64,000 nucleotides of DNA, from positions 62,001-126,000 of the forward strand of contig JAFYJN010000035.1 in the NCBI GenBank assembly GCA_017538105.1. The letters are read 5' to 3'. Each line of letters begins with the position of its first letter. The first letter of the stretch is position 1. Made by a program: the position numbers and the translations under genes. The notes under the pieces were generated by a model. That model did not search any database, was not told the origin of the DNA, and saw nothing but the letters and a program-made list of their open reading frames with translations. This document shows, one piece after another, positions 41,064 to 54,121 of the stretch. The DNA comes from Prevotella sp. GTDB lineage: Bacteria; Bacteroidota; Bacteroidia; Bacteroidales; Bacteroidaceae.

Positions 41064-41103
41064 GAGAGAGAAGATATAATTTGTTGTTTTCAAGGAAAAA
41101 GGC

Positions 41104-41111
41104 TATTTTTG
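41104..41111 (+). promoter_or_regulatory. Probable -7 box of the NRPS gene
   Basis: TATTTTTG lies 20 bases before the ATG at 41132, and inside the upstream extension of the reading frame, so it settles the start. Confidence 0.58.
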
Positions 41112-41131
41112 CAAGAAAATCTTCTTCTTTC

Positions 41132-44100
41132 ATGACAAACGAGGCATCCATATCTTCCACATATCCTCTTTTGCCTTCACAAGAAGGCATTTATTATGCA
41201 TGGATGTCTCGTATTGATGCCACATGTTGGAATCTCCCCATATGTATGACCTACGGGCGGGAGATAGACAGGACTCGTTTACAGGAAGCATTACACGCCA
41301 TTATCGCTCAGCGTGCCACGTTACGTTTGCAGTTGACCGTCGACGAGAAAGGGCAACCCCGTCAATACATCGACCCTACACTCACCATCGACGTACCCTG
41401 TCGTGAGATGAGCGAATCAGCAGCTCTCGACTACTGCCAGCACCATTTCGTTCGGCCGTTTGTACCTTTTTCCAAACAGCCCCTATGTCGTTTTGAGATT
41501 CTGAGCACTCCCGAGCACCACTATTTGCTGTTTGACCTCCACCATTTGATTGGCGACGGAGTAACCATCTCCCATGCTTTCCTCAGTGTAGACCTTCCCC
41601 ATGCTTACGACTGCCAGCCCCTAGATAAGGATGACTATGGCATGTTGGATGCCGCTTTGTCGCAAGAAGCCCTTTATGGCACTGCGCGATACTTGGCCGA
41701 CCGACACTATTTCCATGAGCGTTTCCGTCATCACCCCTTCACCCCTTTATGCGGAATACCCGCCAACCCATGGGGACGTTATTTGCGGTCAAGTTCTTTT
41801 ATGGATAGGAAAGCCCTTGATTTGTGGTGCAAGAACAATGGCATATCACCCAATGTCCTTTTCTCCGCCGCTTTCAGTCTTGTCCTTTCCCGTTTGAGCG
41901 GCGAACGCGAAACAGCGTTCCTCACCCTTTTCCATGGTCGCTCCGACCGTCGTTTGCGCAACGCCTGGGGCATGTTTGTCAGCACTCTACCCCAGTTGGT
42001 GAGCCACCACCCTTCCGACACTATCGGCAGTCTGTTGCTACAGAATCGCCAAGAGCAATTCCGTGCCCTCCGCCACAGCAGCTACCCCCTCACCCATTTC
42101 TGCAATAACCTTCATCACACCCCCACGGTCACCTTTGGTTTCCAGAGCGAACAGATACCCGAGAGCATCGTTTTGGATGGTCATCTATACCCTGGCGTTC
42201 AATTGCAGTATGCCGAGAGTCGCAATGAATTGAGCTGTATGATTTATGTACACGGCTCCACTTACGAGATACGTGTCGACTGCAGTTCCGCCTGGCACGA
42301 CGCCGATTACCTGAAGCGTTTTGCCCAAGCAGTGTCAACCATCGTCGAACAACTGACCACCCTGCCACAGACCACCCCTCTCGACCATTTGTCGCTTGTC
42401 AATCCATCCGAACAACAATTTTTGACAGCCCTCGGTACCGGGAAATCTTTAGCATGGCCTGAGGAAGAAACCCTGACAAGACTTATCCACCGTCAAGTCC
42501 TCCGCAGTCCATCAGCCACGGCCATCCACGACATCCATGGTTTTATGAGCTATGAACAACTGTGGCAGGCCAGTGGACACCTGTCATGCGCACTTCATTG
42601 CCGCCACATCGGTCATGGTGACATCGTGGCCATTTCCCTTCCCCACGACCGCCGGTTCCTCGTAGCCGCAATCGCCGTGCTCCGCAGCGGAGCCTCCTAC
42701 CTGCCCCTTGACCCCAACCATCCCCCACTCCGCCATCAACAACTACTGTCCGACAGCTGTGCCCGGCTCTTGATAGACCAAACAATGTTTGCCACCCTCG
42801 CAGCAGTCGATGTCTCTTCCACCACCACACCACACGAAGAGAGCACCATAGACTATTCCCGCGTCGGCGATATGGCCTACTTGATGTACACTTCCGGTAC
42901 CACAGGGAAGCCCAAAGGTGTGATGGTCAGCCACCATTCCCTATGTCATTTCTCCTACGTCACCGCCCACCTATGGCATCTGAGTGATAAGAGCCGCATC
43001 AGTTGCCATGCCCCTTTCACCTTCGATGCCTCCGTGGAAGACCTCTATCCCGTTCTCACCTGTGGCGGCACCGTTTTTTTGCCTGATGAGGCCATACTCC
43101 ACGACCTCCATGCCCTGCGCCGTTATCTGGCACATCACCATATCACAGGAGGGTGCTACACGCCTCAATTTGCCCACATGCTTACCGAGGGACACCCTTT
43201 GGATGTGGACTACTTATGCGTTGGCGGCGACAGGATGACACATGTGCCAGAAACCAGCGGACGTTTGTTGAACACCTATGGCCCCACCGAGTTTACGGTC
43301 AACGCCACCTATCATGATGTGAATAAGAGTTCCACGGCTAACATCCCCATCGGTCGTCCCCTACCCAATCTCCATGCGTTCGTCATGGACTATGCCGGTC
43401 ATCTACTACCTCGAGGCATGGTTGGCGAATTGTGCCTTGGTGGTCCCCAGATGGCCATGGGATATTGGAAGCGTGTTGAAGAGACCGCCCAACAGTTTGC
43501 CTACTTCCCCTCTGTCGGCATGTCTCTCTACCATACTGGCGACTATACACGTTGGAACGATGATGGATTATTGGAATACATCGGACGTCGAGACGACCAA
43601 TTGGAGTTGAATGGACAGCGCATTGAGCCAAGCGAAATTGAGCACGTACTATGTCAGCATCATGAGATTATCGATGCCTGTTTGAGTGTACAGATATCTG
43701 GAGGACAAGGACAACTCTGTGCACATTATGTTTGCAGGGAGCATCCGGAGAAATCCAGGCCGTATGAGAACAATGATCCATTGGAGGGCGATTTAAAGCT
43801 ATTTCTCCGTCAGCGTCTGCCCTCCTATATGATTCCCCAATTATGGCAGCGAGTGGAGCGCCTGCCCTTGAATTACAATGGCAAAGTCGACCGGAAGCAC
43901 TTGCCCCCCATCGTCAAGCGGCCCCATCCTGTCATTACCGCCACCTGCAATGACATCGAAATGCGGTTGTTGTCATTATTCCGTCAGGTGCTGAATCGGG
44001 ACGACATAGACGTCACCGACAGTTTTTTTGACATGGGCGGCACCTCTCTGAGTGCCATGGAACTGGTTTCGAGAGCCAGAGAGGTGGACCTTGCCATTGA

Positions 44101-45187
44101 TTATGCCATGATTTTCCGCTGGAGCGATGTCCGTTCATTGTCGGCGCACCTCGTCGGGACATCCGACAACAATCCCGGGCTATGGCATCTCCCACATGAA
44201 TTTCGCCCTGTGCCCATCTCACCATTGAGCCAGAAGCGCGAGAGCCCCATTGGTGACCTACTCATCACTGGCTGTACAGGCTTCTTGGGTAGCCACATAC
44301 TGGTCGAGTACCTTATCCATGAGCAAGGCACCGCCTATTGTCTTGTCAGGGGTGAGGACGAGGTCTCCGCGCGTAGAAGACTGCAAAATATTGTGGGAGA
44401 CATCCTCGGACATGCTCAAGCAGAGCGTTTTGCCCCACGGATCGTCATCGTTCTAGGCGACCTTTGTCGCGAAGACACGTTAGAAATGTTTGATGACATT
44501 CATGTGGATACGCTTATCCATTGCGCTGCCAATGTGAGCCATTACGCCCCAATGAAATTGTTGTGGGACGTGAATGTGGAAGGTACGCGTCGCGTTCTGC
44601 GCCACTGCCTTCGCCATGGCACCCACCTTCTTCATCTATCCACCTTAAGTGTAGGCGGCATCGACGGAGAAGGCCATTTCCTTCAATTGAAGGAACAGGA
44701 GTATTACAAAAATCAATCGTTTGTCGACCCATACGATTACACCAAGTTCATGGCTGAGCACATCGTGTTGGAAGCCATTGCGCATGAACACCTTTCCGCC
44801 ACCATTGTACGTCCTGGGTTTCTGGTGTCACCAATCGGTCGTGCCGACCTGATTCCCAACCGCACCGACCTGTTAGCCACTATTGACCATCTCTCAGAAG
44901 AGTTGGGCATATTGCCCCGGCGGATAGCGTCCATACCCATCATTTACAGTCCTGTTGACGAAGCAGCGCGCGAAGTACTGTCATTTGCCATGGAAGATAA
45001 CGGCGGCATCATCCGTCACCTTCACACGGTAGAGGAGAAAACAGCAGGCGAGATGATGCTTTCGCGTCATCCCGCCCTGAGGTGGGTGGAAGATTCCGTC
45101 TTCCAAAGTGCCTTGAAGTCGTTAAATGAGAAAGAACGTTACGCTGTCATTGCTGGCATTATCGGCACCATACCGCCAACACACTGA
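41132..45187 (+). CDS. Single-module nonribosomal peptide synthetase, C-A-T-R
   Basis: 1351 residues, four domains. Condensation (about 10-440) with FDLHHLIGDGVT (HHxxxDG, 137-143). Adenylation (about 460-925) with LMYTSGTTGKPKGVMVSH (from about 584), FDASVEDLYP, LNTYGPTEFTVNA, YHTGDYTRW and NGKVDRKHLPP. Thiolation with DSFFDMGGTSL, Ser972 being the 4'-phosphopantetheine site. Terminal thioester reductase (about 1040-1351) with LLITGCTGFLGSHILVEYL and the YxxxK pair in PYDYTKFMAEHIV, which releases the product as an aldehyde or alcohol with NAD(P)H. My hand alignment of the specificity pocket gives about D-A-E-C-L-V-T-V-N, which I cannot assign. No phosphopantetheinyl transferase, transporter or second module is visible. 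Start fixed by the promoter box at 41104. Confidence 0.92.
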   Translation: MTNEASISSTYPLLPSQEGIYYAWMSRIDATCWNLPICMTYGREIDRTRLQEALHAIIAQRATLRLQLTVDEKGQPRQYIDPTLTIDVPCREMSESAALDYCQHHFVRPFVPFSKQPLCRFEILSTPEHHYLLFDLHHLIGDGVTISHAFLSVDLPHAYDCQPLDKDDYGMLDAALSQEALYGTARYLADRHYFHERFRHHPFTPLCGIPANPWGRYLRSSSFMDRKALDLWCKNNGISPNVLFSAAFSLVLSRLSGERETAFLTLFHGRSDRRLRNAWGMFVSTLPQLVSHHPSDTIGSLLLQNRQEQFRALRHSSYPLTHFCNNLHHTPTVTFGFQSEQIPESIVLDGHLYPGVQLQYAESRNELSCMIYVHGSTYEIRVDCSSAWHDADYLKRFAQAVSTIVEQLTTLPQTTPLDHLSLVNPSEQQFLTALGTGKSLAWPEEETLTRLIHRQVLRSPSATAIHDIHGFMSYEQLWQASGHLSCALHCRHIGHGDIVAISLPHDRRFLVAAIAVLRSGASYLPLDPNHPPLRHQQLLSDSCARLLIDQTMFATLAAVDVSSTTTPHEESTIDYSRVGDMAYLMYTSGTTGKPKGVMVSHHSLCHFSYVTAHLWHLSDKSRISCHAPFTFDASVEDLYPVLTCGGTVFLPDEAILHDLHALRRYLAHHHITGGCYTPQFAHMLTEGHPLDVDYLCVGGDRMTHVPETSGRLLNTYGPTEFTVNATYHDVNKSSTANIPIGRPLPNLHAFVMDYAGHLLPRGMVGELCLGGPQMAMGYWKRVEETAQQFAYFPSVGMSLYHTGDYTRWNDDGLLEYIGRRDDQLELNGQRIEPSEIEHVLCQHHEIIDACLSVQISGGQGQLCAHYVCREHPEKSRPYENNDPLEGDLKLFLRQRLPSYMIPQLWQRVERLPLNYNGKVDRKHLPPIVKRPHPVITATCNDIEMRLLSLFRQVLNRDDIDVTDSFFDMGGTSLSAMELVSRAREVDLAIDYAMIFRWSDVRSLSAHLVGTSDNNPGLWHLPHEFRPVPISPLSQKRESPIGDLLITGCTGFLGSHILVEYLIHEQGTAYCLVRGEDEVSARRRLQNIVGDILGHAQAERFAPRIVIVLGDLCREDTLEMFDDIHVDTLIHCAANVSHYAPMKLLWDVNVEGTRRVLRHCLRHGTHLLHLSTLSVGGIDGEGHFLQLKEQEYYKNQSFVDPYDYTKFMAEHIVLEAIAHEHLSATIVRPGFLVSPIGRADLIPNRTDLLATIDHLSEELGILPRRIASIPIIYSPVDEAAREVLSFAMEDNGGIIRHLHTVEEKTAGEMMLSRHPALRWVEDSVFQSALKSLNEKERYAVIAGIIGTIPPTH

Positions 45188-46761: not shown

Positions 46762-46888
46762 GTGAACAAAGGATCAAAGTTTATTATAGACAAAAGGACT
46801 TTTTTGACATATGGACAAAAGGGACTTTATTTAGACACATGAACAAAGGGACATAATTTTATGACATAGGGATAAAAGGGACTTTTTT
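46762..46888 (+). repeat. Imperfect ~28-bp tandem repeats
   Basis: Four to five diverged copies of a unit near GACATATGGACAAAAGGGAC, each separated by TTT-rich bases: GAACAAAGGATCAAAG, GACAAAAGGACTTTTTT, GGACAAAAGGGACTTTAT, GAACAAAGGGACATAAT, GGATAAAAGGGACTTTTTT. No gene here. The rest of 46889-47034 is AT-rich and empty to my reading. Confidence 0.7.
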
Positions 46889-47034
46889 AACCAATAAGGA
46901 ATACTTTTATGTTCTACATTTTTAAGGTAAAAGATGTGAAATAATATTTATTTTTTACACTTTATGGATGATTCATGCTTAAAACTCAATAAAAGTGAGT
47001 AAATTTACAACCTTTAAAACTAATTATCATAATT

Positions 47035-47336
47035 CACTACTGTCCGGAGAAATTTGGCCATAGATAAAGTTGACCATCATTCTCGACATATTTGTTAGAC
47101 TTGTTACGTTTGAAAATTTCGTTAATAGGCTCCTTCTCGAAGAGGACAAGTCCAATCGACTGAGCAAAGATATATAGATCACAATCGATATGAAACATCT
47201 TTTTTGCTATAACAAGCAGCAAGTAGTCACACACTGCAATCCAGATTTGTGTGTAGACAGCGTTGCGCGATGTTCCATAAAACGATTTGATATGCAGACA
47301 ACTTTATCTATGGCCAAATTTCTCCGGACAGTAGTG
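47035..47336. mobile_element. Non-autonomous IS4-family element (MITE-like)
   Basis: Perfect 38-base inverted repeats lie at 47035-47072 and 47299-47336 (inner core TGTCCGGAGAAATTTGGCC). Between them is the 3' end of a transposase gene on the minus strand, joined directly to the right repeat, so the element has lost most of its transposase. I see no target-site duplication: the left flank is non-coding and the right flank runs straight into a truncated dehydrogenase reading frame. That argues for a later deletion or recombination between copies rather than a clean insertion. Confidence 0.8.
47037..47297 (-). pseudogene. C-terminal fragment of an IS4-family transposase
   Basis: 86 codons read HIKSFYGTSRNAVYTQIWIA, then VCDYLLLVIAKKM and an LFEKEPINEIF block, ending with WPNFSGQ and a stop inside the left inverted repeat. 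This is the typical end of an IS4-type DDE transposase, where (F)YGTSxNAVxTQIWIA is conserved. The catalytic Asp and Glu regions are missing and the frame begins at the right repeat with no start codon. Confidence 0.78.
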
Positions 47337-47608
47337 GATTTACATATAAAAGTAATATTAATGATATCAGGAATACGAAAATAGCTGTAATTCATAAATA
47401 TCTTCATGAAAAGATAAAAACAGTAGATTGTTATGACCCAAATGTCAACATAGAACAAGTAAGGTCTATTTATGGTATTAACATGATTCCATCAGAGTCA
47501 TTGGAAATTCTGTCTTATGACATTATCATCAAGGCTGTTAGCCATGATATATTCGAAACATTAGAATTAGGAAACGTTAATGTTATAGAGTTGGTTGATT
47601 TTCTATGA
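47336..47608 (+). pseudogene. C-terminal fragment of a nucleotide-sugar dehydrogenase
   Basis: An open frame without a start runs from the element boundary: GFTYKSNINDIRNTKIAVIH, then TVDCYDPNVNIEQVRSIYGI, and IIIKAVSHDIFETLELGNVN. GxTxK-x4-DIRNTK, YDP, YGI and AVSHxxF are the C-terminal NAD/sugar domain of UDP-GlcNAc/UDP-ManNAc dehydrogenases (TviB/WbpO/WecC type). About 90 residues remain of an expected ~420; the catalytic cysteine and the NAD domain are gone. Its stop overlaps the next gene's ATG (ATGA), so the radical SAM gene was once translationally coupled to a full dehydrogenase. Confidence 0.82.
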
Positions 47609-48441
47609 TACAACAAATTAACAACAAAAGTGTCAGGGCCGAAGCAGTCCAAAATAGCGACATTCGGTATTTGGAAGATTATTTCAAGCATCATGGGAAA
47701 TTTCCTATGTTTAGGCAGGTGTTGATTGAGACGAGGACAGATTGCAACAATAAATGCCCTTTCTGTCCTCATGCATTCAACAAAAAACCACTTGGCATAA
47801 TGACATGGGAATGCTATACTACCATCATAGACCAGTTATGTACCATCAATTATAATGGAAGAGTCGCGTTGATGCTTTCCAATGAGCCTTTGCTAGAAGA
47901 ACGGCTTGAAAAAATGATAACCTATGCCAAGAATAAATCGCAACGATTGTTTTTGGATATAACTACCAATGGACGCTTGCTAACTTTAGAAAAGTTAGAC
48001 CATTTATTTGATCTTGGATTAGACAATATCAACATCAACGATTATAGAGGAGATCGCGACGCATTTCCTGATAAATGGTCGTCATACCTTGTCCCCATCT
48101 ATGAGGCATATAATAACAATCCCAAGGTATGCTTTCAAAAGAGAAGGCTTGATGAGATATTACCCAATTATGCTGGTAATATACCACAATCCTTTGACAA
48201 ATCTCGTTTTGGTTTCTGTAATTATCCTTTTAGAAAACTGACCATAGCTTTTAATGGGGATGTCCTATTATGTTGTGACGATTTCATGTATGACACATGT
48301 TTCGGTAACGTTATGGAAAGCTCTCTAATTGATTGTTGGAATCATCCGGCTATGAATGATGTTAGATTTTCTCTTCTCAAGGACAAGAGAACTGGTCTTT
48401 GTGAAAGATGTAATGATTTTCAAAACTATAAAGCATACTGA
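47605..48441 (+). CDS. Radical SAM/SPASM enzyme of the island
   Basis: 278 residues. Cluster-binding motif TDCNNKCPFC (Cys47, Cys51, Cys54) near the N-terminus, in the order CxxxCxxC. C-terminal SPASM domain: C205 followed after 12 residues by G and x4-C (CNYPFRKLTIAFNGDVLLCC), then Cys232 and the late pair C266/C269 (GLCERC), for one or two auxiliary clusters. SPASM enzymes mature peptides or oxidise sugars (BtrN is a sugar-alcohol dehydrogenase). Substrate unknown. ATGA overlap with the dehydrogenase fragment; the next gene starts two bases after the stop. Codon and base composition are AT-rich, unlike the neighbouring housekeeping genes. Confidence 0.85.
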   Translation: MIQQINNKSVRAEAVQNSDIRYLEDYFKHHGKFPMFRQVLIETRTDCNNKCPFCPHAFNKKPLGIMTWECYTTIIDQLCTINYNGRVALMLSNEPLLEERLEKMITYAKNKSQRLFLDITTNGRLLTLEKLDHLFDLGLDNININDYRGDRDAFPDKWSSYLVPIYEAYNNNPKVCFQKRRLDEILPNYAGNIPQSFDKSRFGFCNYPFRKLTIAFNGDVLLCCDDFMYDTCFGNVMESSLIDCWNHPAMNDVRFSLLKDKRTGLCERCNDFQNYKAY

Positions 48442-48442
48442 A

Positions 48443-49558
48443 ATGGTGCTGAACGATGAACAATTTGCAGCATTCTCTATGGAGATAGCCACATTTGGAA
48501 ATATACCAATACTCAGTAGGTATTGCGGAATCGGTTGTGTATTCTGCAAAGTTCACACTGACTCATATCTTGGCCATTATCCTAAAATACCGCCAATAGA
48601 TGTGGAGGATTTGCTTAAAGGTTTCAAGTATGTCAACCCTAAAGTGAACTATGTACGTTTAGGTGCAGGAGTATTGGTTGCTCCTCATACCGATCCGTTC
48701 CTGCATCCTATGATATATGATTTTATAAAAATCACCTCTGATTATTTCCCAACTAAAAAAGTGACAACCGTCACGACGGGAGCTTATATAAAGGAGGAAA
48801 AATTGGATTATTTAAACAGCATACCCAATTATGGCATAGACCTTTCTCTAATAACGATGCAGGAACAACGTGAAGCAATTATTCCAAGATCTGAGAGGGA
48901 GAGAACTATGTATTTGTTAAAACATGCTCCACTGAACAAATGTACTCTTATGTTTACAGGCAATTTGGACGAAATAAAGAAGGATCTCGAATTGTTATAC
49001 AACATAGGAGTAGACAAAAAGGTAAGACAAATACTTGTTAGGAGGTTGGAGCATACGGCAATTTCACAACCCACTTTAAAAAGAATGTCTCAGGCGAGCA
49101 TTGACCATTATGAAGAATGTATAACATGGGTAAAAAGGAACTATCCTGATGTCGTTTTTACAGTACCAATTCTTAAGGATGTTTTTAGAGGTGGCAATAA
49201 TGAGTATTTTATTGATGCAGACGAAAGGATAGAGAACCAAAAAGCAATAATAGGTGGACTTCCATCAAATACTATTGTCAATCTAATCTGTCCATTGTCT
49301 GGATATGCATATTTCACAAACGCATTTAAAGATTATAAGAACGTCAAGACAAATCTCATTTATAATCATCTATATGGGGGATCTGTTTCTGTGGCAGGAC
49401 TACTGAATCATGGTGATATACGAGAGCAATTTAAGCCAGAAAAGAATGACATTATGATTATGCCAAACGAAATGTACAACTCTGAGGGAAAAGACCTATT
49501 AGGTGAGAAAATAGAAGAATTGGAAAGATATTATCACGCTAAAATAATTCTTGCATGA
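48443..49558 (+). CDS. Radical SAM protein, distinct subfamily
   Basis: 371 residues. The motif SRYCGIGCVFCK (Cys28, Cys32, Cys35) is CxxxCxxC, so a radical SAM cluster is likely. After it come conserved-looking stretches VRLGAGVLVAPHTDPFLHPM, FTGNLDEIKKDLELLYNIGV and LICPLSGYAYFTNAF, none of which place it in a family I know; I see no SPASM signature. Upstream in-frame codons lie in the previous gene, so the ATG at 48443 is chosen. Its stop overlaps the next start by four bases. Substrate unknown; it probably acts with the other two radical SAM enzymes on one product. Confidence 0.8.
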   Translation: MVLNDEQFAAFSMEIATFGNIPILSRYCGIGCVFCKVHTDSYLGHYPKIPPIDVEDLLKGFKYVNPKVNYVRLGAGVLVAPHTDPFLHPMIYDFIKITSDYFPTKKVTTVTTGAYIKEEKLDYLNSIPNYGIDLSLITMQEQREAIIPRSERERTMYLLKHAPLNKCTLMFTGNLDEIKKDLELLYNIGVDKKVRQILVRRLEHTAISQPTLKRMSQASIDHYEECITWVKRNYPDVVFTVPILKDVFRGGNNEYFIDADERIENQKAIIGGLPSNTIVNLICPLSGYAYFTNAFKDYKNVKTNLIYNHLYGGSVSVAGLLNHGDIREQFKPEKNDIMIMPNEMYNSEGKDLLGEKIEELERYYHAKIILA

Positions 49559-50430
49559 TGGAAACAATTGGTTGGGATAAAATACGATTCCTCGTTAGTA
49601 ATGGTTGTAACTACAAATGTCCTTTCTGTCATAATGAAGGACAGGTAAAATCATTTGCCATTTCCAAAATGTCTTTTGATAATGTCAGAATTATCATCGA
49701 CGTTATTAAGGATGTAAATATCTCTGAAATATGTTTCAGTGGGGGTGAACCATTCTTGAATGAAGACATAGTACGGATGATAGAATATGCTTGCAATGAA
49801 ACGGTCTGCGATGTCTGTTGCGCAAGCAATCTATCATTGATTACAGACGACCAGATAAAAGCTCTTTCTGAAACAAGAGTTAAATTCAACATCCAATTCC
49901 CATACATTGACAAACATCTCTTCAAATCAAGTACAGGAAATGGTAACATCAATGATATACTATACAAGATTGAACAATTGAGAAAAGCCGGAATACAGAT
50001 AGGCCTCAATACTGTCATTCAAAATCAGAACATGGACAATATAAAAGAAATGGTTATGTTTGCCCTTAAAGAAGAAATACCTTTGAAATTACTACCCCAA
50101 ATAGGACTTGAAGGAAGTGAACATTTCAAGGATTTTGTATACCCTATACTCAAAGAGTATGCCATTGACTATAAAGATAAAAAATCTGGGGCAATAAGGT
50201 GGACATTGAAATCAAACAACCATCAAACAATCGTGCTATATATAGATGCCCCTTGTTTCAATAAAAACATCCATAATTGCAGGAATTATGGGGAATTACG
50301 GATATTACCAAACATGAGTGCTCAAACGTGCATCTTGAAGGATGCATCTGTTCTTTTGGAAACAAATAAAGGTAAAGACGTGTTATTAGAACAATTTTTG
50401 ACTTTATGGAAAAACTTCAAGCATTGTTAA
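49555..50430 (+). CDS. MoaA-like radical SAM enzyme of the island
   Basis: 291 residues. NGCNYKCPFCHNEG (Cys18, Cys22, Cys25) and CFSGGEPFLNED (the GGEP SAM-binding motif) are typical radical SAM. The C-terminal part has PCFNKNIHNCRNYGELRILP and QTCILKD, resembling the second cluster region of MoaA (CxxC...RIxxx...C), so an auxiliary cluster is possible. It is not MoaA itself because no molybdopterin genes are near. ATGA-type overlap with the preceding gene and 25-base overlap with the methyltransferase that follows. Confidence 0.85.
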   Translation: MMETIGWDKIRFLVSNGCNYKCPFCHNEGQVKSFAISKMSFDNVRIIIDVIKDVNISEICFSGGEPFLNEDIVRMIEYACNETVCDVCCASNLSLITDDQIKALSETRVKFNIQFPYIDKHLFKSSTGNGNINDILYKIEQLRKAGIQIGLNTVIQNQNMDNIKEMVMFALKEEIPLKLLPQIGLEGSEHFKDFVYPILKEYAIDYKDKKSGAIRWTLKSNNHQTIVLYIDAPCFNKNIHNCRNYGELRILPNMSAQTCILKDASVLLETNKGKDVLLEQFLTLWKNFKHC

Positions 50431-51041
50431 GAGAGTACAGACGCTCACATCCCGAAGACTTGAATATGGCTCCTTGGAGTTCTCAATATTGCCAAATGAA
50501 TTTCCCAAAATATTGGGAGATTGTCTATTGCATATTAAAAAAAATGAATAGACGACACCAAATCATTGAGATAGGCTGTGGATTAGGAGACATAACCTCT
50601 ATTCTTGTTTATTTGGGTTTCAAGGACATCATCTCATTTGAAAAGGATAAGGAAATTGCACGTAGAGCACAAAGGTCAATAAGCGAATTATTCCAAAAAG
50701 ACAATATTATCATCAATGGAGAATATCCTGGCTGCAACGAATATGATTGCGATATCCTTATCATGGTAAACTGTGCTTATGTCACACTTGCATCATCAAA
50801 AGAAGAATACCTGAATTTGTTGAAATCATATTACCGTCATGCAAAAGAGCCAAAGTTCTTTATTTTGGAGGTTATAGACAGTTCATATAAAAACAAAGAT
50901 GACGAATTCCCCTCGTATATTCGACTTGATCGTAATGACATAGAAGTTCTGTTTCCAAATACTTCCATCCATTCGTGGGTGACATATAAATATCCAGAAA
51001 ACAGAAGAAGTAAAACTCTTTATTTAATTGAGAAAAAATGA
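50406..51041 (+). CDS. SAM-dependent methyltransferase (class I)
   Basis: 211 residues. SAM motif I IIEIGCGLGDITSILVYLG (about 53-71), acidic end of beta2 FEKDKEIARRAQ, and motif-IV-like region CDILIMVNCAY. The N-terminal helix and a C-terminal region LDRNDIEVLFPNTSIHSW suggest a small-molecule or sugar methyltransferase. Product unknown. Overlaps the upstream gene by 25 bases and the downstream one by four, as in a tightly packed operon. Confidence 0.78.
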   Translation: MEKLQALLREYRRSHPEDLNMAPWSSQYCQMNFPKYWEIVYCILKKMNRRHQIIEIGCGLGDITSILVYLGFKDIISFEKDKEIARRAQRSISELFQKDNIIINGEYPGCNEYDCDILIMVNCAYVTLASSKEEYLNLLKSYYRHAKEPKFFILEVIDSSYKNKDDEFPSYIRLDRNDIEVLFPNTSIHSWVTYKYPENRRSKTLYLIEKK

Positions 51042-52795
51042 ACGTTACAATAGTTACATCAGAAATTGGACAAAATGGTGGTGGAATGTCATTGTCCTGC
51101 TCCCATCTTTATGAGATTATCTCTGCAGAACACATTGTTAGAGTATTACGCTCAGATGAATTCAATATTGTTACTGCAAAAGGTGGATATTCAACAGAGC
51201 TTACAAAAGGCATCCAATGTGAGTACAAGCTGAAGGAAGATCTAGTCGAATATGAAAATACTGACATCGTGATTGGTTTTGGAGCAAAGTTCAATGGTTA
51301 TTATTCTTCTTTGTTGGCAGAGAGGCTAGGCGTACCTTTCATTCTATGTTTGAGAGGTACTGATGTCAACATCTCCAAATGGTCTGTATCGGATAGTTGT
51401 TTGCTTGGAGAAGCAAGTCGAAAAGCATATAAAATCGTATGTCTATCCAACGAGATGATTTTGAATGTATGCAGCATATTACCTGGTGCGGCTAATAAAT
51501 GTATCATCATTCCAAATGAAATCTATGACGGAAGACCAAACGTCATTTTAAAAAACATTCCTGACTCAATCATCCTTGGAACTGCAGCAAGCCATTTAAA
51601 CGAAAAAAAAGGTGTGGCGAACCTCCTGTTTATGATTAAAGAATTCAAGTCATTATCTGATATCCCAATTCAATTACAACTTGTAGGAAGCATTGATGAT
51701 GACTTGCTCAAAGAATATATAGCAATATCCCAAAAGGTTGGCGTATTTGACAATGTATCTTTTCTGGGTTACAAAACAAGAGAAGCATTACAGGAAACCA
51801 TGAAAAAATGGGACTTCTATATACAAGGCTCTGTATGTGAGGGACATCCGAATTCCGTTATTGAAAGTCTTTTATGCGGTACTGGATTCATTAGCTCTAA
51901 AACAGGATATATCGCCGAACTTTTAGAAAAGGATTTTCCTGTTCTTTTCTTCGACTCATGGAGTCCCCCAAAAATGGCCCGGCATATGGTCAAATTAATA
52001 AAAACAGATAATTTGAGTGTTTTGTATTCGAAAGCGTTTGACAAGCTATATTCTTCTTGCAATAGAAAACTCGTCATTAAACAATGGAAAAGCTTATTGA
52101 TGAAGCCGGATACCGTTTATCCTGCACCTATACTGGAAAACATCATATCATTGGGATTACATGATGTTCAAGGAGAAGTCCATGACAGTATCACAACGCC
52201 AAAATCTGTTTTTTCTAAATTCGTTGATTTCATCTATTGTAATGGCATGAGGCTATGTTCAATGAGAGATTATTTAGCCTTGAACAAAGAACAACGAAGA
52301 AATATGATTGTCTGTACATTTGACGATGGCTATATGAGTCTTGTTAAAACAGCTCTTCCCATTCTTTCAAAATACAATTTCACAGCAACGGTCTTCATAT
52401 GTACAGGCTTGATTGGTAAAGACAATTCCTGGAACAATAAAGATGGGAAAATAAGAGAACACTTAAACGAAGAAGGTATCAGCAGTTTATTAAACTCAAA
52501 TTGGGAAATAGCCTCTCATGGTGTTACTCATAGAAATCTTCTGAAATTGACAGATAAAGAGGTTGAAGAAGAACTGTTCTTATCAAAGAAATATATAGAT
52601 AGCCATTACGGAGAAACCGATACATATGCTTTCCCGTATGGTGCCTATAATCCCTACATACAAAGTTGTGTGAAAAAGTATTATAAATATGCATTTTCTG
52701 TAACTCAGGGTGGAACATCTATTATAGCCGATGCTCTACAAATACGAAGATATTCTATTTCAGATATATACAAAATGATTGAATCCGCCAAATGA
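51038..52795 (+). CDS. Fusion of GT4 glycosyltransferase and polysaccharide deacetylase (CE4)
   Basis: 585 residues. Residues 1-~380 are a GT-B glycosyltransferase of GT4 type: MNVTIVTSEIGQNGGGMSLS start, a DIVIGFG strand, FILCLRGTDVN, then HLNEKKGVANLLFMIKEF and the EGHPNSVIESLLCG donor-binding motif. Residues ~425-585 are a NodB deacetylase: IVCTFDDGYMSL (metal Asp pair) and IASHGVTHRNL (HxxxH zinc ligands), ending with YAFPYGAYNP. The natural reading is that one chain transfers an N-acetylated sugar and deacetylates it. No signal peptide, so it is cytosolic. Overlaps genes on both sides by four bases. Confidence 0.85.
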   Translation: MNVTIVTSEIGQNGGGMSLSCSHLYEIISAEHIVRVLRSDEFNIVTAKGGYSTELTKGIQCEYKLKEDLVEYENTDIVIGFGAKFNGYYSSLLAERLGVPFILCLRGTDVNISKWSVSDSCLLGEASRKAYKIVCLSNEMILNVCSILPGAANKCIIIPNEIYDGRPNVILKNIPDSIILGTAASHLNEKKGVANLLFMIKEFKSLSDIPIQLQLVGSIDDDLLKEYIAISQKVGVFDNVSFLGYKTREALQETMKKWDFYIQGSVCEGHPNSVIESLLCGTGFISSKTGYIAELLEKDFPVLFFDSWSPPKMARHMVKLIKTDNLSVLYSKAFDKLYSSCNRKLVIKQWKSLLMKPDTVYPAPILENIISLGLHDVQGEVHDSITTPKSVFSKFVDFIYCNGMRLCSMRDYLALNKEQRRNMIVCTFDDGYMSLVKTALPILSKYNFTATVFICTGLIGKDNSWNNKDGKIREHLNEEGISSLLNSNWEIASHGVTHRNLLKLTDKEVEEELFLSKKYIDSHYGETDTYAFPYGAYNPYIQSCVKKYYKYAFSVTQGGTSIIADALQIRRYSISDIYKMIESAK

Positions 52796-53850
52796 AGAAA
52801 ATACTTGGAATATTCAGAGGATTCCCTGGTTTGGGAAGAGTCGTATCAGGTGTGTCAATCCTTGAAACACTAAATAAAGACTATAATTGCCAAACTGAGA
52901 TGATATCATATCTTCAAGGTAAAAAATATCTTGAACTAAAAGGATATGATTGTGAGCACGATGTCGTTTCAGCCGATTATTGCTCCGTAGGACTCTTGCC
53001 CACCAATAGGATGGGAGCCTATATTCATAAAAAAATAGTTGAATTTTGTCCAGATGCTATTTTAGTTGATGGTGAGCCGCTAATTCTTCAATCGCTTAAT
53101 ATATCTCACCCATCAATTAAGATTATTTCATTACTTAATCCCTCTGATGTTGACAACCCGCAAAATGACAAGGAGGCTATGGATTTTTTCAATGCTATAT
53201 ACGCTCTTTCTGATTTAGCAATAATCCATGGACTAAGAACGGTTACTCCACAATATGGTTACAAGAAATACATTTCCGTCAACACAATTATTCGGAATGA
53301 AATATTGAAAATCAATAATAGCCCAAACAATAATATATACTGTGTGCTCGGAGGTGGAACTGTGAATGTCGAGAGAAGTTTTGTTGATTCCACTATCAGA
53401 ATTGCAGAGTTGAGTAAGTCTGTTGCATCACGACTTACAGATTACAATATGCATATCATCTGTTCGAGCCAAAACATATATGAAACTGTCAATTCTAAGA
53501 TTGGCCCTAATGTTATAATACACAAAGATGTGTTGAAAGCTTCAGATTATTATTCTGACGCTTGTTTGATAATAACAAGATCTGGCCGTAATACCCTTAG
53601 TGAAATTGCATATCTGTCAATCCCGACAATATCTTTCGTAACTGGTTGTATGTACAGGAAAGAAGAACAACAACACAATGCAAACAGCATAAATCAGATG
53701 TGTTCATACTTAGCAGATACATCCATCGGCATTGATGATTTTACGAAACTATGCAGGTCTGCTTTAAATGCAGAGCGAAAGCCCAGTTCTTTCGAAATAG
53801 GTAATGCAAAAGCCATAGAAAGTATTCTTGATCTACTAAGATTGTCATAA
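52792..53850 (+). CDS. MurG/GT28-like glycosyltransferase
   Basis: 352 residues of GT-B fold. N-terminal GIFRGFPGLGRVVSGVSILE (glycine-rich loop as in GT28/GT1), LLPTNRMGAYIH, then a C-terminal Rossmann domain with YCVLGGGTVNVERS, IICSSQNIYETV and the donor-site motif RSGRNTLSEIAYLSIPTISF. GT28/MurG-like enzymes use UDP-sugars. It is the last complete gene of the island; its stop is five bases before the ATG of a truncated metallophosphoesterase. Acceptor unknown. Confidence 0.8.
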   Translation: MKKILGIFRGFPGLGRVVSGVSILETLNKDYNCQTEMISYLQGKKYLELKGYDCEHDVVSADYCSVGLLPTNRMGAYIHKKIVEFCPDAILVDGEPLILQSLNISHPSIKIISLLNPSDVDNPQNDKEAMDFFNAIYALSDLAIIHGLRTVTPQYGYKKYISVNTIIRNEILKINNSPNNNIYCVLGGGTVNVERSFVDSTIRIAELSKSVASRLTDYNMHIICSSQNIYETVNSKIGPNVIIHKDVLKASDYYSDACLIITRSGRNTLSEIAYLSIPTISFVTGCMYRKEEQQHNANSINQMCSYLADTSIGIDDFTKLCRSALNAERKPSSFEIGNAKAIESILDLLRLS

Positions 53851-53855
53851 TTATC

Positions 53856-53927
53856 ATGGAATCAAAAAGAATAAGGATTGTCCATATGTCTGATTTACAT
53901 CTGACATCTGATCTCATTATATACTAG
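53856..53927 (+). pseudogene. N-terminal fragment of a metallophosphoesterase
   Basis: 23 codons: MESKRIRIVHMSDLHLTSDL, then I, I, Y and stop. RIVHMSDLHL is the first metal-binding motif (DxH) that opens calcineurin-like phosphoesterases, but everything after is missing and the following 278 bases hold no related frame. It marks the right edge of the AT-rich island. Confidence 0.75.
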
Positions 53928-54121
53928 GCAGCGAACAAAGAATGGTCATAGGTTGGGAAACGCAGAAAAGAGAGCGGGATGACATTCATAACGTCTTTGA
54001 ATGATAGTAGAAAAAGATGGTTGTGTGCGGACACGAAAACGATTTCAAAAAACAAAAAAGGTCTATTTTTGTGTAATTTCTAACTTTTTTACATGAAATT
54101 TGAAAAATTTCTTTCAATTTG

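Follow-up and report, generated by a model that had tools for sequence, protein, structure and literature searches.

The 64,000-nucleotide stretch of Prevotella sp. DNA analysed here (assembly GCA_017538105.1, contig JAFYJN010000035.1, positions 62,001 to 126,000; hereafter the window) carries an AT-rich island of six genes, A to F, encoding three radical S-adenosylmethionine (SAM) enzymes, a putative methyltransferase, a glycosyltransferase-deacetylase fusion and a MurG-like glycosyltransferase. We find that the island is a conserved, mobile and rare Bacteroidales cluster and not a chance grouping, and that the window copy, cut at both ends, derives from a larger cluster which includes a uridine diphosphate (UDP)-sugar dehydrogenase and a phosphoesterase. 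As to function we tentatively favour, at somewhat less than an even chance, the view that A to F form the central part of a mobile cluster of the Bacteroidales that would assemble and edit an amino-sugar glycoside in the cytosol.

Related loci were collected in a single genome-collection scan with B, which returned ten further loci (L031 to L040) carrying this gene at 75-84% identity; L020 is the same site as L031 and L021 the same as L033, and each was counted once. Nine of the ten are labelled Bacteroidales (Phocaeicola, Segatella copri, Prevotella, Muribaculaceae, Porphyromonadaceae and unplaced), and carriers among named isolates are S. copri Indica, Phocaeicola massiliensis DSM 17679 and Prevotella pallens ATCC 700821. 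The remaining contig, that of L032, is labelled Clostridia, although its cluster is of the Bacteroidales type and it bears an OmpA-domain gene; because of this gene, misbinning is the likely source of the label. Wherever the sequence can be read, all ten loci agree in gene order. B is followed by C and D in 10/10 (D of L037 is cut by the contig end), E was seen in nine (L037 ends before E, and E of L033 is partly masked) and F is present in all eight loci that can be judged, L033 being masked at F. A occurs in six of the ten, L033 being among those without it. The dehydrogenase is found in eight (that of L037 begins at the contig edge), is split into two open reading frames (ORFs) in the S. 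copri locus L038 (7954-9161) and was not found in L034. A complete phosphoesterase of one family lies 3' of F in 6/10 other loci, and a short-chain dehydrogenase/reductase (SDR) is likewise present in six.

To estimate how widespread the cluster is we drew 301 genomes of the family and counted matches with E below 1e-100 as strong. B matched strongly in three (the remainder at 4e-4 or weaker) and C in the same three (next best 1.6e-20), while F did so in two (next best 7e-9), as did A, for which nothing else reached 1e-15. Agreeing coordinates identify two of the three as the genomes from which L031 and L033 come. Among 295 genomes of the order B gave elsewhere only weak cross-matches (9e-5 or weaker), and across the phylum, at E 1e-6, it was detected in its own genome only (1/395). 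The original prediction had named chance co-occurrence of the genes as a possible objection to a joint pathway; since order and content are kept in ten other loci, and B and C match strongly in the same genomes, we dismiss a chance grouping.

Within the window the six genes are co-directional on the + strand and tightly packed (47605-53850; Table 1), with a gap of 1 nt between A and B, 4-nt overlaps at B/C, D/E and E/F and a 25-nt overlap at C/D. The per-gene GC content of A to F is 0.34-0.37, and 0.30-0.37 at third codon positions (GC3), against 0.485-0.527 and a GC3 of 0.58-0.61 for four measured flanking genes; outside the island GC averages 0.479 in 1-kb steps (standard deviation 0.034, minimum 0.41). 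The overlapping or nearly touching six-gene array and the drop in GC relative to its flanks were both described in the original prediction and are borne out, in that all six ORFs were found, with junctions ranging from the 1-nt gap to the 25-nt overlap, and A to F stand at 0.34-0.37 against about 0.48 outside. The hand counts of GC given there (23/60, 19/60 and 39/60) proved exact on recount.

Table 1. Coordinates of the island and of the features at its ends (positions in the window)
Feature	Coordinates	Strand	Description
A	47605..48441	+	Radical SAM with four-Cys auxiliary-cluster domain, BtrN-like (probable alcohol dehydrogenase)
B	48443..49558	+	Radical SAM plus DUF512; probable class 2 cobalamin-dependent radical SAM enzyme
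C	49555..50430	+	MoaA/viperin-like radical SAM enzyme; SGGEP motif and four further invariant Cys
D	50406..51041	+	Generic class I SAM-dependent methyltransferase; all matches weak
E	51038..52795	+	BshA-like GT4 glycosyltransferase fused to CE4 polysaccharide deacetylase
F	52792..53850	+	GT28/MurG-like glycosyltransferase
UDP-sugar 6-dehydrogenase remnant (C-terminal 90 residues)	47336..47608	+	4-nt overlap with A
Metallophosphoesterase remnant (calcineurin-like; first 23 codons, then stop)	53856..53927	+	Peptide matches start of the L038 enzyme
Inverted-repeat element, 310 bp	47031..47340	not assigned	At the left edge of the island
DNA not common to sibling genome G608	46888..54013	not assigned	Limits of flank homology

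In none of the loci does the GC content of the core leave the AT-rich range of 0.30-0.40. Low GC relative to the surroundings is not constant, the core being about equal to the ends of the stretch in L034, L036 and L037. Surroundings are mostly unlike between loci: an integrase and RhuM adjoin the cluster in L031, type I restriction genes in L033, a transposase in L040, an AAA-ATPase/nuclease in L038 and helicases in L036 and L039, and two flanking families are each common to two loci (one to L033 and L039, the other to L035 and L036). Carriage of B by phages or plasmids was considered and set aside, as none was found in the viral contigs or plasmids searched.

Each cluster carries three to five radical SAM genes. 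Further radical SAM families occur beside those of the window, namely cl8 in seven of the ten loci, cl10 in four and cl14 in two (L031 and L036); L033 encodes in addition a B12-domain radical SAM protein, and L040 has two shorter ORFs that start like parts of it. Leaving aside cl14 and the B12-domain protein, the loci fall into those with A alone (the window, L031, L034, L038), those with cl8 and A (L035, L036, L039) and those with cl8 and cl10 (L032, L033, L037, L040). In a tree of E (nine rows) a fully supported split sets L032, L035, L036 and L040 apart from the remaining five, so that E broadly tracks the tailoring set, with L039 mixed. Mean column identity is highest for B among A to F (86%), followed by A (73%), C and F (65% each), D (59%) and E (58%), and stands at 75% for cl8 and 70% for cl10; the alignment of F is without L032 (a fused form), L033 and L037, that of E without L033 (partly masked) and L037 (contig end), and that of D without L037 (cut).

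The dehydrogenase remnant at the left end of the window island is matched by the dehydrogenases of intact clusters. The adjoining inverted-repeat element has arms of 42 nt each (47031-47072 and 47299-47340) that are 98% complementary, and occurs as a single copy in this genome. Homology with sibling genome G608 extends up to 46887 on the left and resumes at 54014 on the right; no empty insertion site was found in G608, where the two flanks lie on two different contigs. The window island may be a non-functional relic caught between rearrangements, a question independent of what the pathway makes. Both end genes are cut, the inverted-repeat element adjoins the left end and the flanks are separated in the sibling, all of which would fit a relic. 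Yet all six inner genes match their relatives in length and every catalytic motif checked is intact. Loss or damage of the dehydrogenase is not peculiar to the window, since none was found in L034 and that of L038 is split, and the host of the window encodes a full-length dehydrogenase, 46% identical to one cluster dehydrogenase, which, judged by its sequence, could replace the lost gene. We consider a relic rather unlikely on balance.

The family assignments of the original prediction hold, with A (radical SAM with SPASM), B (radical SAM with DUF512), C (radical SAM), E (GT4 with CE4) and F (GT28 C-terminal domain) recovered above Pfam cut-offs. The cobalamin-binding domain of B goes beyond that prediction, as do the truncation of the window copy, the dehydrogenase and phosphoesterase of the larger cluster, and the presence of related clusters in other genera. 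Searched as a profile against the Protein Data Bank (PDB), A finds BtrN (4m7t at E 9.2e-29 and 4m7s at 1.5e-28), the next solved protein following at 8e-4. The CX3CX2C cysteines of A align with those of BtrN, and C205, C223, C266 and C269, invariant in 7/7 sequences, align with four BtrN cysteines that we take to be the ligands of its auxiliary cluster. We read A as a BtrN-like radical SAM enzyme, probably an alcohol dehydrogenase. According to two papers, BtrN oxidises 2-deoxy-scyllo-inosamine in butirosin synthesis (PMC9012708, PMC6231123); the first describes its auxiliary cluster as fully ligated by four Cys, and the second, on SkfB, cautions that similarity networks do not readily predict fold or function within this subfamily.

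For B, the Pfam Radical_SAM model matches above its cut-off, with the CX3CX2C cysteines C28, C32 and C35 invariant in 11/11, and PF04459 (DUF512) scores 32.8 bits against a cut-off of 25, the match being confined to the C-terminal portion of the model (positions 110-197 of 202). The solved DUF512 proteins are found weakly by the B profile (9cg1, csDUF512, E 0.0021; 9cg2, pfDUF512, E 0.039). A stretch ending in A/S-G-L is kept in 11/11 sequences, its L320 aligning with the cobalt-facing leucine (L366 in cs, L286 in pf), and the cobalamin-tail-binding Thr of csDUF512 is replaced by Cys in ten and by Ser in one. Published work places this leucine beneath the cobalt of cobalamin and reports that four DUF512 proteins bind cobalamin and form methylcobalamin, with substrates described there as not known (PMC11659888). 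Among the 50 fold matches listed for the B model, only four Mmp10 entries and pfDUF512 (9cg2) reach the last model residue. They cover residues 29-371 at a root-mean-square deviation of 11-12 Å, a value as expected if the two domains sit at a different angle; core-only matches rank equally high, and other matches, such as ChlB (to residue 363), extend into the second domain as well. The csDUF512 structure (9cg1) is not among these 50, which proves nothing either way. As the model is middling, we take the comparison of the predicted fold at most as support, and not as proof, for the view from sequence that B is probably a class 2 cobalamin-dependent radical SAM enzyme of the DUF512/Mmp10 kind.

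The GT4 half of E matches BshA (5d00, E 9.5e-10) and its CE4 half matches solved deacetylases (6go1, E 2e-12), with the CE4 motifs TFDDGY and HGxxH present in 9/9; F has a GT28 C-terminal domain and a weak likeness to MurG. The F protein of L032 (14344-16326) additionally carries a fused microbial PARG catalytic domain, and genes for NrtR-like, vWA and ADP-ribosylglycohydrolase proteins lie directly 3' of the cluster in L039; an ADP-ribose theme is possible.

C is MoaA-like by NCBIfam, below every cut-off shown, and its profile finds solved MoaA and viperins in the PDB at 2e-15 to 5e-9; SGGEP and four extra Cys are invariant in 11/11. A role in defence was looked for with PADLOC on five cluster proteins (B to F) and rejected: the core of C matches the viperin models (E 1.5e-15 and 3.3e-14), D matches weakly, and B, E and F have no match. 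The broader idea that the cluster modifies a nucleotide, nucleic acid or nucleoside, either in phage defence or as a nucleoside antibiotic, draws on this MoaA/viperin likeness of C, on the resemblance of the L036 phosphoesterase to cyclic-nucleotide phosphodiesterases, on the F-PARG fusion and on restriction and helicase genes as neighbours. The viperin match of C, however, lies over the radical SAM core (residues 10-167) and at 46 bits stays below the NCBIfam viperin cut-off of 180, no kinase family is among the cluster families scanned, the PARG fusion is confined to one locus and PADLOC offers nothing for B, E and F and little for D, so that we regard this idea as very improbable. The methyltransferase assignment of D stands in generic form, its Pfam methyltransferase matches all being below cut-offs. 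We also considered D as a ribosomal RNA methyltransferase conferring self-resistance, given weak KsgA/Erm matches to its SAM-binding region and an invariant N-C-x-Y, and dropped this reading because all four solved proteins that its profile finds at E 0.01 or better are arginine or isoaspartate methyltransferases, aligned over the same generic region.

Junctions between genes bear on whether the radical enzymes act on a peptide. Only one of 96 junctions in the 11 clusters exceeds 60 nt, so there is no room for a precursor peptide within them. A conserved short ORF of about 60 residues flanks the cluster in 5/9 loci examined (5' of the dehydrogenase in L032, L033, L035 and L039, and 3' in L031, after 14914); read by eye it looks like a helix-turn-helix regulator. 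One 33-residue match between the flanks of L040 and L033 (E 0.004) we take as chance. A cluster for a ribosomally synthesised and post-translationally modified peptide (RiPP), in which the SPASM/twitch radical enzymes modify a ribosomal peptide that is later glycosylated and methylated, would have a precedent in the SPASM-type enzymes, methyltransferase and transferases of Bacteroidales RiPP clusters, as described in a survey (PMC10352776). With such tight junctions and a regulator-like flanking ORF, and with no peptidase-transporter seen among the proteins scanned and A nearest to a cyclitol enzyme, we judge it the least probable of the readings considered.

Other genes of the larger cluster bear on the sugar supply. 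The L040 dehydrogenase matches best a general sugar dehydrogenase model (343.4 bits, above cut-off) and second TviB (331.6), the L038 SDR matches best TviC (351.1 bits), and the first SDR of L040 is nearer to nucleotide-sugar dehydratases (dTDP-glucose dehydratase). In L032 (16326-20114) and L040 (15400-19198) a GT2 gene is added, along with a fusion of GT8/TupA-like and ATP-grasp type and an SDR, a set that suggests a longer glycan with an amino-acid amide; Pfam was run on the L040 proteins of this GT2/GT8-TupA set. A simple hydropathy threshold applied to 108 cluster proteins of 11 loci, with exporters, flippases and polymerases as its targets, flags three, of which two are dehydrogenases and one is an SDR. 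By this test the 108 proteins show no likely exporter, and neither the flippase nor the polymerase of a Wzx/Wzy-type capsule or O-antigen locus.

The main rival to a free small molecule is a mobile module that decorates a surface glycan of the host, most likely the lipooligosaccharide (LOS) core, and we hold it to be a real possibility that nonetheless falls well short of an even chance. Soluble transferases would add sugar to the lipid A-core in the cytoplasm, the radical enzymes and D would edit it, and the host's own lipid flippase would export it, which would explain the missing exporter. LOS-core loci would resemble such gene sets, and a TviB/TviC-like supply of UDP-amino-uronate, several transferases (E and F, as well as the GT2 and GT8/TupA ATP-grasp proteins of L032 and L040), the lack of a flippase or polymerase by hydropathy, the fixed core amid variable tailoring genes and the rare accessory distribution would all suit it. 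On the other hand, the number of radical SAM genes per cluster (three to five), the BtrN likeness of A and the BshA likeness of the GT4 transferase suit small-molecule chemistry better, none of the 19 flanking proteins scanned with Pfam matches a lipopolysaccharide-synthesis family, and B is conserved far above what a surface-diversifying system would lead one to expect.

The pathway that we favour, a cytosolic assembly of an amino-sugar glycoside, can be drawn as follows, its steps, substrates, reaction order, product and the status of the product as a free small molecule all being inferred from protein families. A UDP-N-acetylhexosamine 6-dehydrogenase would supply a UDP-amino-uronic acid, joined in L038 by a C4-epimerase-like SDR; in the window, where the cluster's own gene is cut, this function would probably come from the host gene. 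The GT4 half of E would move N-acetylhexosamine onto a small acceptor and its CE4 half take off the acetyl group, after which F could attach a second sugar and D methylate. A may turn a ring alcohol into a ketone by a BtrN-like radical route, B, using cobalamin and a SAM radical, would most likely C-methylate an unactivated carbon, and C would carry out a further radical step. The phosphoesterase, lost in the window, would take off a phosphate or nucleotide. These families suggest a soluble, heavily edited amino-sugar glycoside, often an amino-uronate, as the likely product.

Several observations weigh against this pathway or its parts. Neither a cyclitol synthase, an aminotransferase nor another scaffold-making family is among the cluster families scanned, which leaves the acceptor unexplained; 2-deoxy-scyllo-inosose synthase and inosose/inosamine aminotransferase are likewise not among the cluster-family representatives scanned with Pfam and NCBIfam. 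The clusters showed neither an exporter nor a gene of evident self-resistance function, which would be unusual for a secreted natural product, and the sugar dehydrogenase, deacetylase and transferases would be equally at home in surface-glycan loci. A has Tyr189, invariant in 7/7, at the position of BtrN Arg152, which is presumably the proposed base, so that its substrate probably differs from that of BtrN. B has Lys36 in 11/11 where F95 of cs, Y47 of pf and Y23 of Mmp10 are aromatic, and methylation by B is therefore not assured; the aromatic residue between the iron-sulphur cluster and cobalamin is common to the three members with solved structures, but the class has not been defined by it. 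The top fold matches for B are SuiB and viperin, both core matches, and its model is middling (mean predicted local distance difference test score 69, with residues 1-49, which hold the cluster cysteines, below 50). The window copy, with dehydrogenase and phosphoesterase both cut, may be silent. As to mobility, the B tree leaves seven of eight inner branches open and by itself gives no evidence of transfer from host to host.

A search of titles and abstract starts in the open-licence literature returned no description of the cluster, an absence that is not proof; the closest published work among the papers found is the Bacteroidales RiPP survey, which concerns peptide clusters with precursor genes (PMC10352776). 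Within that scope the statement that no named system has this set holds good, and the cluster is uncharacterised as far as the literature was covered. A 2025 review poses the question of which reactions DUF512 enzymes carry out (PMC13331322), and a DUF512 enzyme within a conserved sugar-processing operon offers a concrete substrate class to test. Our results suggest exchange, among Bacteroidales, of an amino-sugar pathway that is rich in radical SAM enzymes and corresponds to none of the named systems that our searches brought up, and carriage by named isolates makes the cluster testable. A bolder proposal, which we put forward as speculation and think rather doubtful, is that these mobile clusters make a new class of aminoglycoside-like amino-uronic compounds, that the DUF512 enzyme with its cofactor-side Lys performs a new carbon-editing reaction, and that the swappable radical SAM sets (A; A with cl8; cl8 with cl10) yield variants.

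Apart from the island, the window encodes a single-module nonribosomal peptide synthetase-like protein on the + strand (41081-45187; condensation, adenylation, carrier and reductase domains). Its best NCBIfam match is the aureusimine synthetase AusA, its GC is host-like, and the portion from 43673 aligns with sibling G608.

Comparison with known systems places the cluster beside several pathways. The GT4 and deacetylase pairing found here also occurs in the butirosin pathway, where it fits the logic of making a glucosaminyl pseudo-disaccharide, and A, which finds BtrN at E 9e-29, has the CX3CX2C motif in common with it as well as the four Cys aligned with those of the auxiliary cluster. The differences are the Tyr at the Arg152 position of A, an extra cobalamin-type radical enzyme and the CE4 domain of E, unlike the deacetylase type of butirosin synthesis. 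The original prediction of a logic similar to aminoglycoside pathways is thus upheld in part, through the nearest solved relative of A and the domains of E; judged by the gene families scanned the cluster does not belong with those for 2-deoxystreptamine aminoglycosides, and the accompanying remark that known core enzymes are missing agrees with our finding no scaffold synthase or aminotransferase among the cluster families scanned. In bacillithiol (BshA/BshB) and mycothiol (MshA/MshB) synthesis a cytosolic GT4 enzyme transfers GlcNAc, which is then deacetylated. E similarly pairs a BshA-like GT4 with a deacetylase, but joins both activities in one protein, with a CE4 domain for the deacetylation, and no thiol-forming ligase was seen in the clusters. 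The L040 dehydrogenase is TviB-like and the L038 SDR TviC-like, as in Vi-antigen synthesis, although both score under the equivalog cut-offs (592 and 760) and no polymerase or exporter genes of that system were seen in the clusters. With the DUF512/Mmp10 enzymes B shares a radical SAM domain followed by a C-terminal DUF512 region and the A/S-G-L motif with its Leu; it differs from them in having Lys36 instead of an aromatic residue and Cys or Ser instead of the csDUF512 Thr, in that no PDZ domain was seen in B, and in its setting within a sugar-enzyme operon.

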